Below are positions 3,103 through 7,573 of a DNA stretch of 21,833 bases, one piece after another. The translations under genes were made by a program, and so were the position numbers. Numbering within the stretch: the stretch's first letter is position 1; each line of letters begins with the position of its first letter. The notes under the pieces are model-generated. The model was not told the origin of the DNA, made no database searches, and worked only from the letters and a program-made list of their open reading frames with translations. The DNA is from a virus: positions 1 through 21,833 of the IMG/VR virus record IMGVR_UViG_3300044613_002340; one strand, written 5' to 3'.

Positions 3103-3473
3103 GCCACACCTCTCGGCTGGCAGATCCCGTGACGCCACTTGCTGACTTTGCTTTGCGTGTTGCAAGGCTCCTCTCGCCGTCTGCTGTCGTAGTGCTTTTC
3201 CCTCACCACCTTTGCCCGCTCCTCAACCCACGGCGACAACGCCAGTCCGTCTAGCGATGCGGCATCGTCCTCAGGTGTCGGTGCCTCAGGTTCGTCAGCT
3301 GGGTGCAGCGTCCTGCGTGGCAACTTGTACCGCTGTGCCCACTTTGTGACTGTGGAATAGGCCACGCCAAACCGCTTGGCAATCTCTGACGAGGTAACGC
3401 CTTCCGCCCACAGTTGGTGGAGCAGCACGAGATCAGCCCGAGAGTGGTTGCGTGATGCTTCGCTGGCTTTCAT
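3099..3473 (-). CDS. Helix-turn-helix DNA-binding protein
   Basis: This 124-residue protein has an N-terminal HTH at about residues 12-52: LVLLHQLWAEGVTSSEIAKRFGVAYSTVTKWAQRYKLP, with the turn at FGVAY and the recognition helix STVTKWAQRY. This is the arrangement seen in resolvase-type, homeodomain-like and small terminase-like HTHs. The middle is acidic and proline-rich. The last 45 residues are basic (EERAKVVREKHYDSRRREE...) and may be a second nucleic-acid-binding segment. It overlaps the sliding clamp gene by ATGA and the next gene by GTGA. It may be a regulator of the early operon. A small terminase subunit is an alternative, though no large terminase is nearby. Confidence 0.82.
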   Translation of the reverse strand: MKASEASRNHSRADLVLLHQLWAEGVTSSEIAKRFGVAYSTVTKWAQRYKLPRRTLHPADEPEAPTPEDDAASLDGLALSPWVEERAKVVREKHYDSRRREEPCNTQSKVSKWRHGICQPRGVA

Positions 3474-4588
3474 GCGTCCTCCGCCAGAGGCATGATGACT
3501 CCGGTGTACGGGCCGCAGCGAAGGAGCACGCGGCTCTGGGCGTCCTTCACGTACACGTCAACATGCGGCTCTTCGTCGGCTGGCAGGTTCGCCAAGAACT
3601 GGGCCAGATACTTCGGGTCCAGCTTCGTGCTTGCCGTTGAGCCCGCCGCGATCGTCGGGCAGATCACCTTGCTCTCCCCGTACTCGCTCGAGCGGCCCAC
3701 GAGCACCAGCGTGTTGGCCGTCCACGTCAGGCTGATGCCCTTGGACTGCTCGCTGGTGACGATGGCTGCGGACTGCACCGCCTGGAGCAGCTCCACCACG
3801 TCAATCACCGTAGGCTCGCCTTCCGCCTCGCCAACCACGTCACGCCACCGTGGATAGCGACCGTCCACGAGCCGGCCCGTGATCGTGCAGCCGTCCAGCG
3901 AGAAGCGGACCTCTTTTCCGTTGGACTCAACCTGAACGCTGCCGTCACCCGTGGCCATGCTTGCCACCGTCGCCAGCAACCTGGCCGGCACGATGGTCTG
4001 CGAGGCGTCAACGGCATCGTCGCTCTCAGTCTCCACGCACGCCAGGCGTCGCCCGTCAGTGCCAACCCAGTGCTGCCGCGAACCGTCTGCGGTTGACTCC
4101 ACGTCCAGCATGACGCCGCCCAGTGCGTAGCGGCTGGACTCGGCGTCCGTGGCGTACGTCGTGGCCTTGGCGGCCCGGCAGAACTGGTCAGCCGGCAGGC
4201 GGCAGATTGCCTTCAGATCGCCAGCGTCCCACGTTGGGAACTCTGCGGCGTCTTCCGTTGGTAGAGTCCACGAGCCAGCACCGCACTTCACCGTTACGCT
4301 GCTTTCCTTCGGAATCAGAAACACCTCGTCGCCGGTCGCGGCCCGCAGGATGGCGCTGAGCCGATGAGCCGGCAGCAGCATGGCGTCGCCGTGGTAGTCA
4401 ATCTCGCGGTCAATACGCACCTCGAGATCCGTGCCCGTCAGCAGCCCGTCACCTAGTCTGACGTTGCCCAGGATTGGCTTCGCGTGCCTTGTCGGCACAG
4501 CCCTGAGCACGTCGGCAAGTGCCGCCCTGAGCGTTGACGTTGCCAGCGTGATTCCAGTTGCCTTCCGTTCCCGTGTTGCAGTCGCCAT
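3470..4588 (-). CDS. dnaN: DNA polymerase III beta sliding clamp (phage-encoded)
   Basis: At 372 residues this has the length of bacterial beta clamps, the ring-forming dimer that tethers polymerase and repair proteins to DNA. Family landmarks appear in order: TRHAKPILGNVRL near residues 33-45 in domain 1, YALGGVMLDV followed by VGTDGRRLA in domain 2, VDGRYPRWRDV in the domain 2/3 region, DPKYLAQFL in domain 3, and YTGVIMPLAEDA at the end, where bacterial clamps have the VMPMRL-type tail. The ribosome binding site is the AAGG just before the ATG. It overlaps a small membrane-protein gene by 140 bases and the HTH gene by ATGA. No polymerase is in the window, so it may load a host enzyme. It is too intact to be a decaying host copy. 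Confidence 0.93.
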   Translation of the reverse strand: MATATRERKATGITLATSTLRAALADVLRAVPTRHAKPILGNVRLGDGLLTGTDLEVRIDREIDYHGDAMLLPAHRLSAILRAATGDEVFLIPKESSVTVKCGAGSWTLPTEDAAEFPTWDAGDLKAICRLPADQFCRAAKATTYATDAESSRYALGGVMLDVESTADGSRQHWVGTDGRRLACVETESDDAVDASQTIVPARLLATVASMATGDGSVQVESNGKEVRFSLDGCTITGRLVDGRYPRWRDVVGEAEGEPTVIDVVELLQAVQSAAIVTSEQSKGISLTWTANTLVLVGRSSEYGESKVICPTIAAGSTASTKLDPKYLAQFLANLPADEEPHVDVYVKDAQSRVLLRCGPYTGVIMPLAEDA

Positions 4589-4697: not shown

Positions 4698-4966
4698 AGT
4701 TCTTCTCCCGTGTCTTCAAGCAGCGGCCACGTCTTCGGCTGCTCGCGTGCTTCGATGTGCTCGAAGTAGCAGGCCTGTCTGACAAGCCTGGCCCGCAGTT
4801 CGTCGTTCTCAGCCTTGAGCGTCTTGATGGACGCAATGGCAATCCCGATGGTGCGAGCGTTCGCAACGAGTGAGTCGTGCATGCTCCAGTTGTCAGCGTC
4901 TTCACTGGCGTGGATGCAACCACCCTGCAGACGCAGCAGACGCTTGATAAGTCTTTCGGTTGTCAT
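4694..4966 (-). CDS. Unknown small protein with short coiled coil
   Basis: This 90-residue protein overlaps its neighbours on both sides as ATGA. The N terminus is basic and leucine-rich (MTTERLIKRLLRLQGG). A leucine-repeating helix runs from about residue 40 to 65 (GIAIASIKTLKAENDELRARL) and could form a short coiled coil for dimerisation. The end is acidic. I recognise no family. It lies between the LexA-like domain and the sliding clamp, inside the replication block. Confidence 0.75.
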   Translation of the reverse strand: MTTERLIKRLLRLQGGCIHASEDADNWSMHDSLVANARTIGIAIASIKTLKAENDELRARLVRQACYFEHIEAREQPKTWPLLEDTGEEL

Positions 4967-5202
4967 GTTCGCACCCTGATTCCACGGGACTTGCCGGGCT
5001 CAATGGTGATGTAGCCCTTACGCTCCAGGCGTTTAAGCAACCCGGCGACAGCGTTGGGCGATGAGACGCCAATGCCGGCGGCGATTTCTCTGACGGCAGG
5101 GCCCCACATGCCAGCAGTTCTGCAAATGAAGTCGTATGCCTCTTTCTGGCGAGGCGTGAGCGGTTGTCGCTCTTCGGTAGCGGTGGTGTTTTCTGGGGTC
5201 AT
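4963..5202 (-). CDS. Stand-alone LexA-type DNA-binding domain
   Basis: This 79-residue protein is nearly all one domain: LTPRQKEAYDFICRTAG, then VREIAAGIGVSSPNAVAG, LLKRLERKGYI and GKSRGIRVRT. This is the LexA N-terminal winged helix, including the SPNA recognition-helix motif and the SRGIR wing. The S24 autoprotease half of LexA (cleavage site, Ser-Lys dyad) is absent and the gene stops right after the wing. It could occupy SOS-type operators without being cleaved after DNA damage, or control phage promoters. It overlaps the next gene by ATGA and follows the O-like replication gene by 17 bases. The domain call is strong; the regulatory role is inferred. Confidence 0.88.
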   Translation of the reverse strand: MTPENTTATEERQPLTPRQKEAYDFICRTAGMWGPAVREIAAGIGVSSPNAVAGLLKRLERKGYITIEPGKSRGIRVRT

Positions 5203-5219: not shown

Positions 5220-5810
5220 TTAACAGCTCTCGTCAACAAATCCACTTTTGGGATTCGACGGTGCCGGCTCCTGACCGGCACCGGAAGAATCCTCAATTGA
5301 GATCCCATTGGTAGTACTTGGACTACCAATGGATCTAAATGAATTGCGGGCACAGAGTGTGCGCGCTCCGCGCACCACTCGTGCGCGCTCCGCGCACGGC
5401 TCGTGTCCGGAGCGCGCACCACTCGTGCCCGGGGGGGGCACGCCTTGTGCGCGCTCCTGGACACCACTCGTGCCCGGGGGGGGCACCACTGGTGCGCGCG
5501 CCGTGACAAGAAAAACGGTGCGGCCAGAGCCCTCGGGCTTCTCCAAAACCTCCAGAACCCCACAGGAAATCATCTGCGTGATGCCTCTGCGAATGGTCGT
5601 TGGATGTACTCCAACAAGCTTGGCGGCACGCCGGATGGACATCCTGACTTGGCACGTCGAGAAGTCAGCCGCGTAGAGCACGTACAAAGCCGCCAGACGC
5701 CCTTCTGATCTGAGCGAGGCTAGAGAGCCGTCCTCGAGCATCGCCCTCCAGCGGCGACGCATTTCGCCCTGGCGTGAAGGCTCCTTTCCGGGTCGTTTCT
5801 CAAACGTCAC
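5220..5810 (-). CDS. Winged-helix replication initiator (lambda O-like) containing the repeat array
   Basis: This 196-residue protein starts by ATGA overlap with the primase-helicase gene. Residues 34-102 form a winged helix: SEGRLAALYVLYAADFS, MSIRRAAKLVGVHPTTIRRG and a beta wing ending GRTVFLV, like the DNA-binding domains of phage replication initiators. From about residue 105 to 152 the coding sequence runs through seven 22-23 bp dyad repeats, giving a low-complexity protein segment with PPPGTSG twice. The C terminus is polar and disordered. In lambda, protein O binds iterons inside its own gene and recruits the helicase loader. Here the gene adjoins the helicase and contains the repeats, so I infer the same job. 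A transcription factor is the alternative. Confidence 0.8.
   Translation of the reverse strand: MTFEKRPGKEPSRQGEMRRRWRAMLEDGSLASLRSEGRLAALYVLYAADFSTCQVRMSIRRAAKLVGVHPTTIRRGITQMISCGVLEVLEKPEGSGRTVFLVTARAPVVPPPGTSGVQERAQGVPPPGTSGARSGHEPCAERARVVRGARTLCARNSFRSIGSPSTTNGISIEDSSGAGQEPAPSNPKSGFVDESC
5301..5335. other. Near-perfect hairpin beside the dyad array
   Basis: CATTGGTAGT (5306-5315) and ACTACCAATG (5322-5331) pair exactly around the 6-base ACTTGG. The flanking GATCC and GATC extend the stem to about 14 bp with one bulge. It lies 24 bases from the first repeat of the array, inside the same gene, in a stretch richer in A and T than the array. It has no T-run. It may be part of a replication origin; a role in the mRNA is also possible. 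Confidence 0.6.
5359..5507. repeat. Seven-copy dyad repeat array, candidate replication origin
   Basis: Seven 16-18 bp units of the form GTG-x-CAC start at 5359, 5381, 5403, 5425, 5447, 5470 and 5492, one every 22-23 bp, with 5-bp spacers mostly CACTC. The seventh ends GAC. Units 1 and 2 are GTGCGCGCTCCGCGCAC. Units 4 and 6 are GTGCCC, eight G and CAC. Unit 3 is close to unit 5 inverted. The period is not a multiple of 3, so it is DNA that is being kept. A degenerate half-unit precedes it near 5338-5353. The array lies inside the gene of the initiator-like protein, as lambda iterons lie in gene O. Confidence 0.75.
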
Positions 5811-7573
5811 ACTGCACCCCAGTTCTGGGTTGGAGCGTGTCCGGAAAACTCGGGGAAGTCTGGGATTTCGCAGGCGTCCTCAAAGTACTGGTACTGCCCG
5901 TGGAACCACATTTCCACGTCAGCCATCTGGCCCTGGCGGAGCTTCTTGCACTTCCACTCAATCTTGATTTCGCCAGCCTCGCCGGTTTCGCCTATGCGGT
6001 GCCCGAAAAGGAAGTTGTCCACGTCAAAGTCGATCTGATTTGAGCCCTTGCCGATGTTGCCGATCTCGGTGCTGGCGTCGCATCCTTTGGCGATATTCGT
6101 GACGAGAAGCGTTGCGATGTTCCGTGTTGTCGTAATCTCGCGGAGCTTCAGCAGAACCTCGTTAATCTCGCCAGTTTTGTCGTTGAAATGCCTCGTGGAA
6201 CGAACCAACTGCAGGTAGTCAACGATGAGCAACGTCGGGCCGTCCTTCGTGACTGCACGCTCAATCCTGTCAATGATGAGAGGAGCCTCAATCAGTTTCA
6301 GGCGATTGCCGATAGCTGCACCAAGGTCAGACGCTACGCGGTCGCTTGGCTCTCGCTTCTGGATTACGTCCTGCAAAGTTAGCTTCTCTGGCTGTCCGCC
6401 AAAGTTCGTAATGGCCCTGGCTGCGAGCGCTGCCCGAGTCATTTCCCCAAGGCACCAAGCCGCAACCATCTCTGGGTTTTGCCCGAGGCATTGAAGAACC
6501 AGCTGCAGGGCAAGAGCGGACTTCCCAAGGCCAGGAGCAGCAGCGATGGCTGTCATTTGCCCTAGCGGAAGGCCGCCGCCAAAGAGCTTGTCTAGGGCTC
6601 GAATGCCGGTGGGAAGGGCAGGCGTCTCTTCCTGCTCTCGCCAAGCCTTGATCGCGTCTAGCAGCGTCGGCGTGGGAGTTTCGTCTGCGGCATCGACAAC
6701 AGGAACGGCCTCATCTGCAGACCCTAGGACCGGAAGTCGCGTCCTCTTCCAGGCGTTGGCAATCTGCCGTGGGCAATCGTCAAGGTCATCCTGCCGCAGG
6801 CCAACGCGACGCATGCGCTCCATAATGGCCGTAGTTGCCTCAGCAACACCCCATCCACGGGCAGCCATGTCGCACGCAACCGTAAACATGGTTTGACGCC
6901 GGCCAGCTGCAAGCGCGAATCCTTCCTCGAGGAACCGCCGCGTTAGGTCGCTCATGCTCTTCGGCTTTACGACGATGGACTGCACCGCCTGGCCACGGAA
7001 CACGTCCAGCGAGTAGATCCGAGTCGGGTCGCAGTCCCAGAGGTGCGCCCTGGGCGTCTGCTCGTACTTCCAGTTCACAAACCCAGGAAGACGCATGATG
7101 CGCGGCCAGTCGCAGATTGATTGATCAGAGCCAAGTGAGGAGGCAATGGCCTTCATCCGCTCGTGCCACGCAGCTGCGTCGCGCATTGGCTCTGACAGCC
7201 GCCACCACAAATGAACTCCGCCACCGCTTTCAATGATGGCTGTGGGCATCGGGAAGCCAGCGGCACGAACGCGGGCCAGGGCGTCCTCGACTACAACACC
7301 ACCGTCAAAGTCTGCAAACACACACCGGGCCAGGGCTACGCCTTCAGCCTGGGAGGAGTTCTTTTCCTTGCGAGGATTTGCCCCAAAGTAAGCGTGAACT
7401 CGCTGGTTTTCGTCGCGGTTCAGCCGCTCGAGCCAGTCGATGATGTCCGGTATTTCAGTCAGCGTTGACCACCGCCGGCCAGCGGCAGGAGGAAGCGGAC
7501 GAAACTCAATGATGTCCTCGGGCTCAAAGATAGCGCCAAGGAAATCGATGCACTGCGAAAGGGCGTCCATCAA
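5807..7573 (-). CDS. Primase-helicase fusion (RepB-like primase plus DnaB-like ATPase)
   Basis: This 588-residue protein probably primes and unwinds DNA at the phage replication fork. The N-terminal third has features of archaeo-eukaryotic/RepB-type primases: FADFDGG at 86-92 with metal-binding aspartates, SGGGVHLWWRL at 116-126 containing the motif-II histidine, and RIMRLPGFVNWK at 158-169. A linker containing GWGVAEATTAIMERM resembles a PriCT segment. The C-terminal half is a RecA-fold DnaB-type ATPase: Walker A APGLGKS at 346-352, GEMTR near 376-380, Walker B LLIVDYLQL at 448-456, and a late KLRQGQ region. It overlaps genes on both sides by ATGA. The helicase assignment is strong; the primase domain is good but subtler. 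Confidence 0.9.
   Translation of the reverse strand: MMDALSQCIDFLGAIFEPEDIIEFRPLPPAAGRRWSTLTEIPDIIDWLERLNRDENQRVHAYFGANPRKEKNSSQAEGVALARCVFADFDGGVVVEDALARVRAAGFPMPTAIIESGGGVHLWWRLSEPMRDAAAWHERMKAIASSLGSDQSICDWPRIMRLPGFVNWKYEQTPRAHLWDCDPTRIYSLDVFRGQAVQSIVVKPKSMSDLTRRFLEEGFALAAGRRQTMFTVACDMAARGWGVAEATTAIMERMRRVGLRQDDLDDCPRQIANAWKRTRLPVLGSADEAVPVVDAADETPTPTLLDAIKAWREQEETPALPTGIRALDKLFGGGLPLGQMTAIAAAPGLGKSALALQLVLQCLGQNPEMVAAWCLGEMTRAALAARAITNFGGQPEKLTLQDVIQKREPSDRVASDLGAAIGNRLKLIEAPLIIDRIERAVTKDGPTLLIVDYLQLVRSTRHFNDKTGEINEVLLKLREITTTRNIATLLVTNIAKGCDASTEIGNIGKGSNQIDFDVDNFLFGHRIGETGEAGEIKIEWKCKKLRQGQMADVEMWFHGQYQYFEDACEIPDFPEFSGHAPTQNWGAV

Follow-up and report, generated by a model that had tools for sequence, protein, structure and literature searches.

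A short gene of an uncultured phage carries, within its own coding sequence, a regular array of inverted half-sites, and the question is what purpose this array serves. It lies in a virus record of 21,833 bases (IMGVR_UViG_3300044613_002340), the whole of which is referred to here as the window; the integrase, tape-measure protein, RecT and sliding clamp encoded in it point to a temperate tailed phage. The reading that we favor, with a probability of roughly three in four, is that the locus is a phage replication origin inside its own initiator gene, at which a winged-helix protein would bind the array and which would operate in a lambda-O-like manner.

A putative initiator gene among replication genes

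The array is located in a 196-codon ORF with a GTG start (5220-5810, minus strand), which encodes the putative initiator and overlaps the end of the primase-helicase ORF (5807-7573, minus strand). The product of the latter is a 588-aa protein whose N-terminal part matches RepB_primase in Pfam (PF16793, E 1.3e-7, the RepB-type primase region), and which also contains a DnaB-like helicase domain (DnaB_C, PF03796, E 2e-20). A PDB profile search gave only a weak PrimPol match, and RepB' was not among the matches. Besides the primase-helicase, the replication genes around the array encode a sliding clamp, RecT and SSB (the last a weak match); no separate P/DnaC-type loader was found in the scans. 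A DNA polymerase III beta-clamp-like protein with all three Pfam beta domains is encoded at 3470-4588 (minus strand). The next gene after the initiator ORF (4963-5202, minus strand) encodes a 79-aa HTH protein that resembles the LexA N-terminal domain by eye; its equivalent varies considerably among the group I relatives described below, and some of them (e.g. L031-L034) apparently have another gene at this position.

The preliminary description of this DNA had stated that the host gene encodes a winged helix and borders a primase-helicase gene, and both statements hold: besides the overlap of the two ORFs, AlphaFold predicted a winged helix for the first 105 residues (mean pLDDT 88), placing this N-terminal domain (wHTH) at about 5495-5810 (minus strand), while the C-terminal tail is encoded by the array and the hairpins discussed below. 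The viral matches of the domain in Foldseek include the lambda gpO N-terminal domain, phage Min27 O, RepL and RepA-type initiators. The top PDB fold matches are MarR/CodY/ArsR-type regulators, and the fold is common to many repressors as well as initiators. At the sequence level, no O match was found in Pfam or PHROGs (generic HTH matches only), no similarity to known initiators was detected, and tblastn against 50,697 phage records gave no match. A weak match to RP-C (PF03428) was obtained for 2 of 19 members of the wHTH family (best E 0.0013), the window protein having none.

Regular arrays of protein sites are also present at plasmid centromeres, which would fit a partition (centromere-like) site; on the other hand, the surroundings speak against this or a packaging site, as the neighbors are replication genes and no ParA/ParM-like gene was found among the window proteins scanned. 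We consider such a role very improbable.

Layout of the array

The array (5348-5497, minus strand) is 150 bp long. Six-base half-sites of two forms, xxxCAC and GTGxxx, take turns in it at 11-bp steps; there are 14 of them, and they form seven dyads of the type CAC-N5-GTG. Each dyad spans 17 bp, and the period is 22 bp apart from one 6-nt spacer after dyad 2. In order on the minus strand, the dyads are GCGCAC-CAGTG-GTGCCC (dyad 1, 5481-5497), GGGCAC-GAGTG-GTGTCC (dyad 2, 5459-5475), GCGCAC-AAGGC-GTGCCC (dyad 3, 5436-5452), GGGCAC-GAGTG-GTGCGC (dyad 4, 5414-5430), GGACAC-GAGCC-GTGCGC (dyad 5, 5392-5408), GCGCAC-GAGTG-GTGCGC (dyad 6, 5370-5386) and GCGCAC-ACTCT-GTGCCC (dyad 7, 5348-5364). In the window, GTGCNCNNNNNGNGCAC is found 4 times where 0.12 would be expected, a number reached in none of 100 shuffles; self-matching reaches 0.61 at a lag of 22, compared with no more than 0.43 after shuffling, and dyad centers follow each other every 11 bp.

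Previously, the repeats had been described as seven GTG...CAC dyads at 5359-5507. A periodic array well beyond chance is indeed present, but the phase of that description was off by half a unit, and the CAC arm of its seventh dyad (5492-5508) is absent. The correct phase is evident from 26 loci: the inner spacer of CAC-N5-GTG is 5 nt in all 169 cases, while the spacer between GTG and the following CAC is either 5 nt (121 cases) or 6 nt (23 cases, mostly after dyad 2). Since the former is constant and the latter variable, CAC-N5-GTG is the rigid unit.

Distribution in uncultured phages

A three-dyad pattern built from group I arrays was scanned on 2.9 million viral contigs. Of the 46 matches, 45 were located inside a gene whose product belongs to the wHTH family, with E values between 1e-24 and 1e-46; a DnaB-like helicase gene adjoins 43 of these 45, the remaining two being on short or truncated pieces. 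Recovery of group I is expected from the derivation of the pattern; the near-absence of other matches and the recovery of distant groups were not expected a priori. Thus, the array is carried by dozens of uncultured phage relatives, which are freshwater phages, and it is found at the same position in the same wHTH gene. The preliminary description had proposed to examine this, and the absence from relatives that would have spoken against its proposal is not what was observed. The 22/11-bp lattice is retained even where the half-site has completely changed (L013, L018, L031).

The relatives differ in the helicase protein. Group II comprises L101, L103, L104, L107, L109, L110, L124, L126, L127, L134 and L141; its helicase is about 435 aa and lacks a recognized primase domain in the members read, with L109, L110 and L134 assigned by score and locus structure alone. 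In group III (L122 and L123 scanned, L129 placed by similarity), the N-terminus of the helicase bears PriCT_2. One initiator-array module is therefore combined with three different helicase/primase proteins.

No nucleotide match to phage records was found, and at the protein level only the helicase domain matched, at no more than 27% identity among the matches listed. A prophage/host search of 84,980 species genomes gave no helicase relative, and the 11 pattern matches in species genomes were rejected as unrelated tandem repeats without this wHTH gene. Tandem GTGCAC or GTACAC repeats with steps of 11 or 22 bp were seen beside bacterial host genes (L146, L150, L152, L155, L156); no link between them and the phage family was found. 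The sole pattern match outside the wHTH family is a tandem CACTCGGGGTG array in L121 (3155-3212; IMGVR_UViG_2928125067_000001), inside a phage gene for a DUF1376 protein and just past the part that encodes its N-terminal domain; the in-gene design is the same, but the gene is unrelated.

The array is translated and does not behave as hairpins

It had been proposed that the arms of the dyads covary so that pairing is kept. This could not be confirmed: units 3 and 5 of the GTG...CAC dyads are unpaired in the window, and covariation is absent across the 26 loci. Complementarity between GTG..CAC partners is 0.628, compared with 0.633 when partners are shuffled within the array (P=0.64), and the corresponding values for CAC..GTG partners are 0.650 and 0.647 (P=0.44). 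Each phage has a short half-site repertoire of its own, such as GCG, GGA and GGG before CAC in some and GGT, GCA and GTA in others, TGG in L045, and GGGAAC/GTTCCC in L013-L018, and the half-site sequence shifts across the whole array rather than pair by pair.

These patterns bear on the possibility that the array itself forms structured RNA or single-stranded hairpins. Single units such as GTGCGCGGAGCGCGCAC are able to fold; against this, within-dyad covariation is missing from the 26 loci, half-sites change array-wide, and Rfam gave nothing above the gathering threshold in the region (sub-threshold chance matches only). Such a role is hardly credible to us. Because the arms do not covary within dyads, the repeats look like double-stranded protein-binding sites rather than base-paired RNA or single-strand hairpins.

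The preliminary description had also argued that the protein is not what is conserved here. It is true that the period does not keep the reading frame; nevertheless, the coding frame through the array has no stop in any of the 25 loci counted, compared with 34 and 66 stops in the other two frames, and the array is thus also translated. In L040, which is outside these 25 loci, the coding frame stops within the array, implying that the full protein tail is dispensable there. In L021 (6145-6225), a member of the GTTCCC half-site clade, the array is irregular and contains inverted repeats that are long and perfect (GGCGCAGTTGTTCCCGG...); it is perhaps rearranging.

In the winged-helix protein, residue 71 occupies the second position of the predicted recognition helix. 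All 14 loci in which many half-sites have G beside CAC carry T at this residue, and 11 of the 12 others carry N; it therefore agrees with the type of half-site in 25 of 26 loci, and no other of the 72 columns gives a better single-residue split. On the helicase tree, each trait changed three times, including L027 group versus L030/L019 and L045 versus the L035 group, and with only about three evolutionary changes the association is not significant given relatedness. This coupling is suggestive of binding between wHTH and the sites, although it is not proof.

Two covarying hairpins beside the array

Directly past the array is an inverted repeat, H1 (5302-5335, minus strand), which is a putative DNA-unwinding or helicase-entry site. 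Its loop is 6 nt in the 22 aligned sequences, and both-sided changes were observed in 12 of 16 pairs, giving a covariation score of 0.471, whereas shuffles score 0.185 and slid partners no higher than 0.16. A second, G+C-rich hairpin, H2 (CGGTGCCGGTC-AGG-AGCCGGCACCG; 5259-5283, minus strand), also covaries (0.384 versus 0.090). H2 was considered as a rho-independent terminator and rejected, as a T-run is absent on both strands. The earlier idea that the hairpins might serve in single-stranded form or as RNA lacks support for the array and finds it in H1 and H2, which the preliminary description did not contain. The inner eleven pairs of H1 include no G-U pair, suggesting that H1 acts as DNA rather than RNA. 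A+T content peaks locally at H1, where it is 0.57-0.65 in five long contigs versus 0.2-0.42 over the array. By eye, short direct repeats can be made out within H1, CAnT in group I and CCTCAA in group II, which recur every 10-11 bp; such a palindrome with a phased repeat was seen in the window (5296-5345), L007, L020, L024 and L101, and it recalls the 13-mers found in the unwinding tracts of plasmids.

All three groups retain H1. It was seen in L101, L107, L141 and others of group II, where compensatory changes include GGATTC/GAATCC, GGGTTC/GAACCC and GGTTCC/GGAACC, and L122 and L129 of group III have both H1 and H2. Being kept beside three helicase types, the hairpin follows the array and helicase and not the primase type.

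This is important for an RSF1010 (IncQ)-type origin, in which wHTH would act as RepC on iterons and H1 and H2 would be ssi sites for the RepB-like primase domain of the neighbor. The RepB_primase match of that neighbor and the presence of a 22-bp array with two hairpins are what such an origin would have. However, H1 is retained in group II, whose helicase lacks a recognized primase domain, and both hairpins are retained beside the PriCT_2-type N-terminus in L122 and L129; a conserved GTG a few bases 3' of the hairpin, as in ssiA, was not found for H1 or H2 in the relatives compared; and the sites are alternating inverted half-sites instead of direct-repeat iterons. We dropped the RSF1010-like ssi model because H1 occurs beside helicases without that primase, and an origin of this type appears unlikely.

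The array might also be an operator, with wHTH as a repressor and the array as a cooperative silencing or autoregulatory site instead of an origin. The regulator-type folds closest to wHTH in PDB and the second HTH gene downstream agree with this. On the other hand, the array occupies part of the 3' half of the gene for its own putative binding protein, covarying hairpins with an A+T peak come directly after it, and a replicative helicase adjoins it whichever N-terminus that helicase has. We regard an operator as improbable.

A model of the proposed origin

The preliminary proposal of an iteron origin within a lambda-O-like initiator gene is thus well supported by the constant position of the array in relatives, the O/RepL/RepA fold class, the adjoining A+T-rich tract and the surrounding replication genes. 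In our model, the winged-helix domain of about 105 residues would bind the seven CAC-N5-GTG dyads as dimers. As each repeat spans about two helical turns, bound dimers would be aligned on one face of the DNA, and the resulting complex could strain and open the adjoining A+T-rich tract that bears H1. The DnaB-like helicase encoded by the adjacent phage gene may then enter at the opened H1/H2 region. Cumulative GC-skew, another check proposed at the outset, was computed for five long contigs and did not switch at the array; this is a weak test because contig ends are unknown and the genes are mostly co-oriented.

A further and rather doubtful possibility is that H1, as a DNA hairpin containing short phased repeats, allows the phage's DnaB-like helicase to load with no separate loader after the region has been opened by the wHTH array. 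If true, this would represent an iteron-plus-hairpin origin class in which conservation of the hairpin does not depend on the priming enzyme. On the favored reading, the origins of a whole group of uncultured temperate phages could be diagnosed from sequence. As dozens of natural variants differ in half-site, recognition helix, hairpin and helicase type, both initiator-site co-evolution and the role of the hairpin in helicase loading are directly testable.

Comparison with known origins

In RSF1010, the iterons are bound by RepC; RepA is the unwinding protein, and the ssi stem-loops, once exposed, are recognized by RepB' (PMC4234260, PMC4434180). Its oriV shares with our locus an initiator, a repeat array, hairpins, and a RepB-type primase and helicase. 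Here, however, primase and helicase form one fused protein, the hairpins are independent of the primase type, the dyads are inverted repeats and the putative origin is within the initiator gene. The last feature is shared by repABC plasmids, whose oriV is inside repC and has an A+T-rich region (PMC3155836), as is also the case here, but no repeats are detectable in the repC gene of p42d, and repA/repB were not seen here. In pRN1, a conserved stem-loop lies downstream of the primase-helicase gene and keeps its structure while the sequence changes (PMC4234260). A conserved stem-loop of variable sequence 3' of the primase-helicase gene is present in our phages as well; pRN1 differs in lacking iterons and in its SF3-type primase-helicase, whereas here there are an array and a separate wHTH protein.

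In lambda, the middle of gene O contains the iterons, which are inverted repeats with an A+T-rich tract next to them and are bound by O dimers; in lambdoid origins the array is also translated, and its size differs among phages (PMC7466680, PMC5043065). Several differences from lambda are clear: wHTH of the window has no detectable sequence similarity to O; the sites are G+C-rich, 17 bp long and regularly spaced at 22 bp in a continuous lattice of 11-bp half-sites; there are 5-7 dyads compared with 4-6 iterons; a covarying hairpin lies on the A+T tract; and a DnaB-like helicase is phage-encoded, with no P/DnaC-type loader in the scans. As homology to gpO is not established, we use lambda-O-like for the operation and not for membership of the O family. 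What is shared is the arrangement: the initiator gene holds its own inverted-repeat sites after an N-terminal DNA-binding domain, an A+T-rich tract adjoins the array, the array is translated, and the gene of a replication partner is adjacent. By analogy, this design probably works like the lambda origin (PMC7466680, PMC5043065, PMC6022878).
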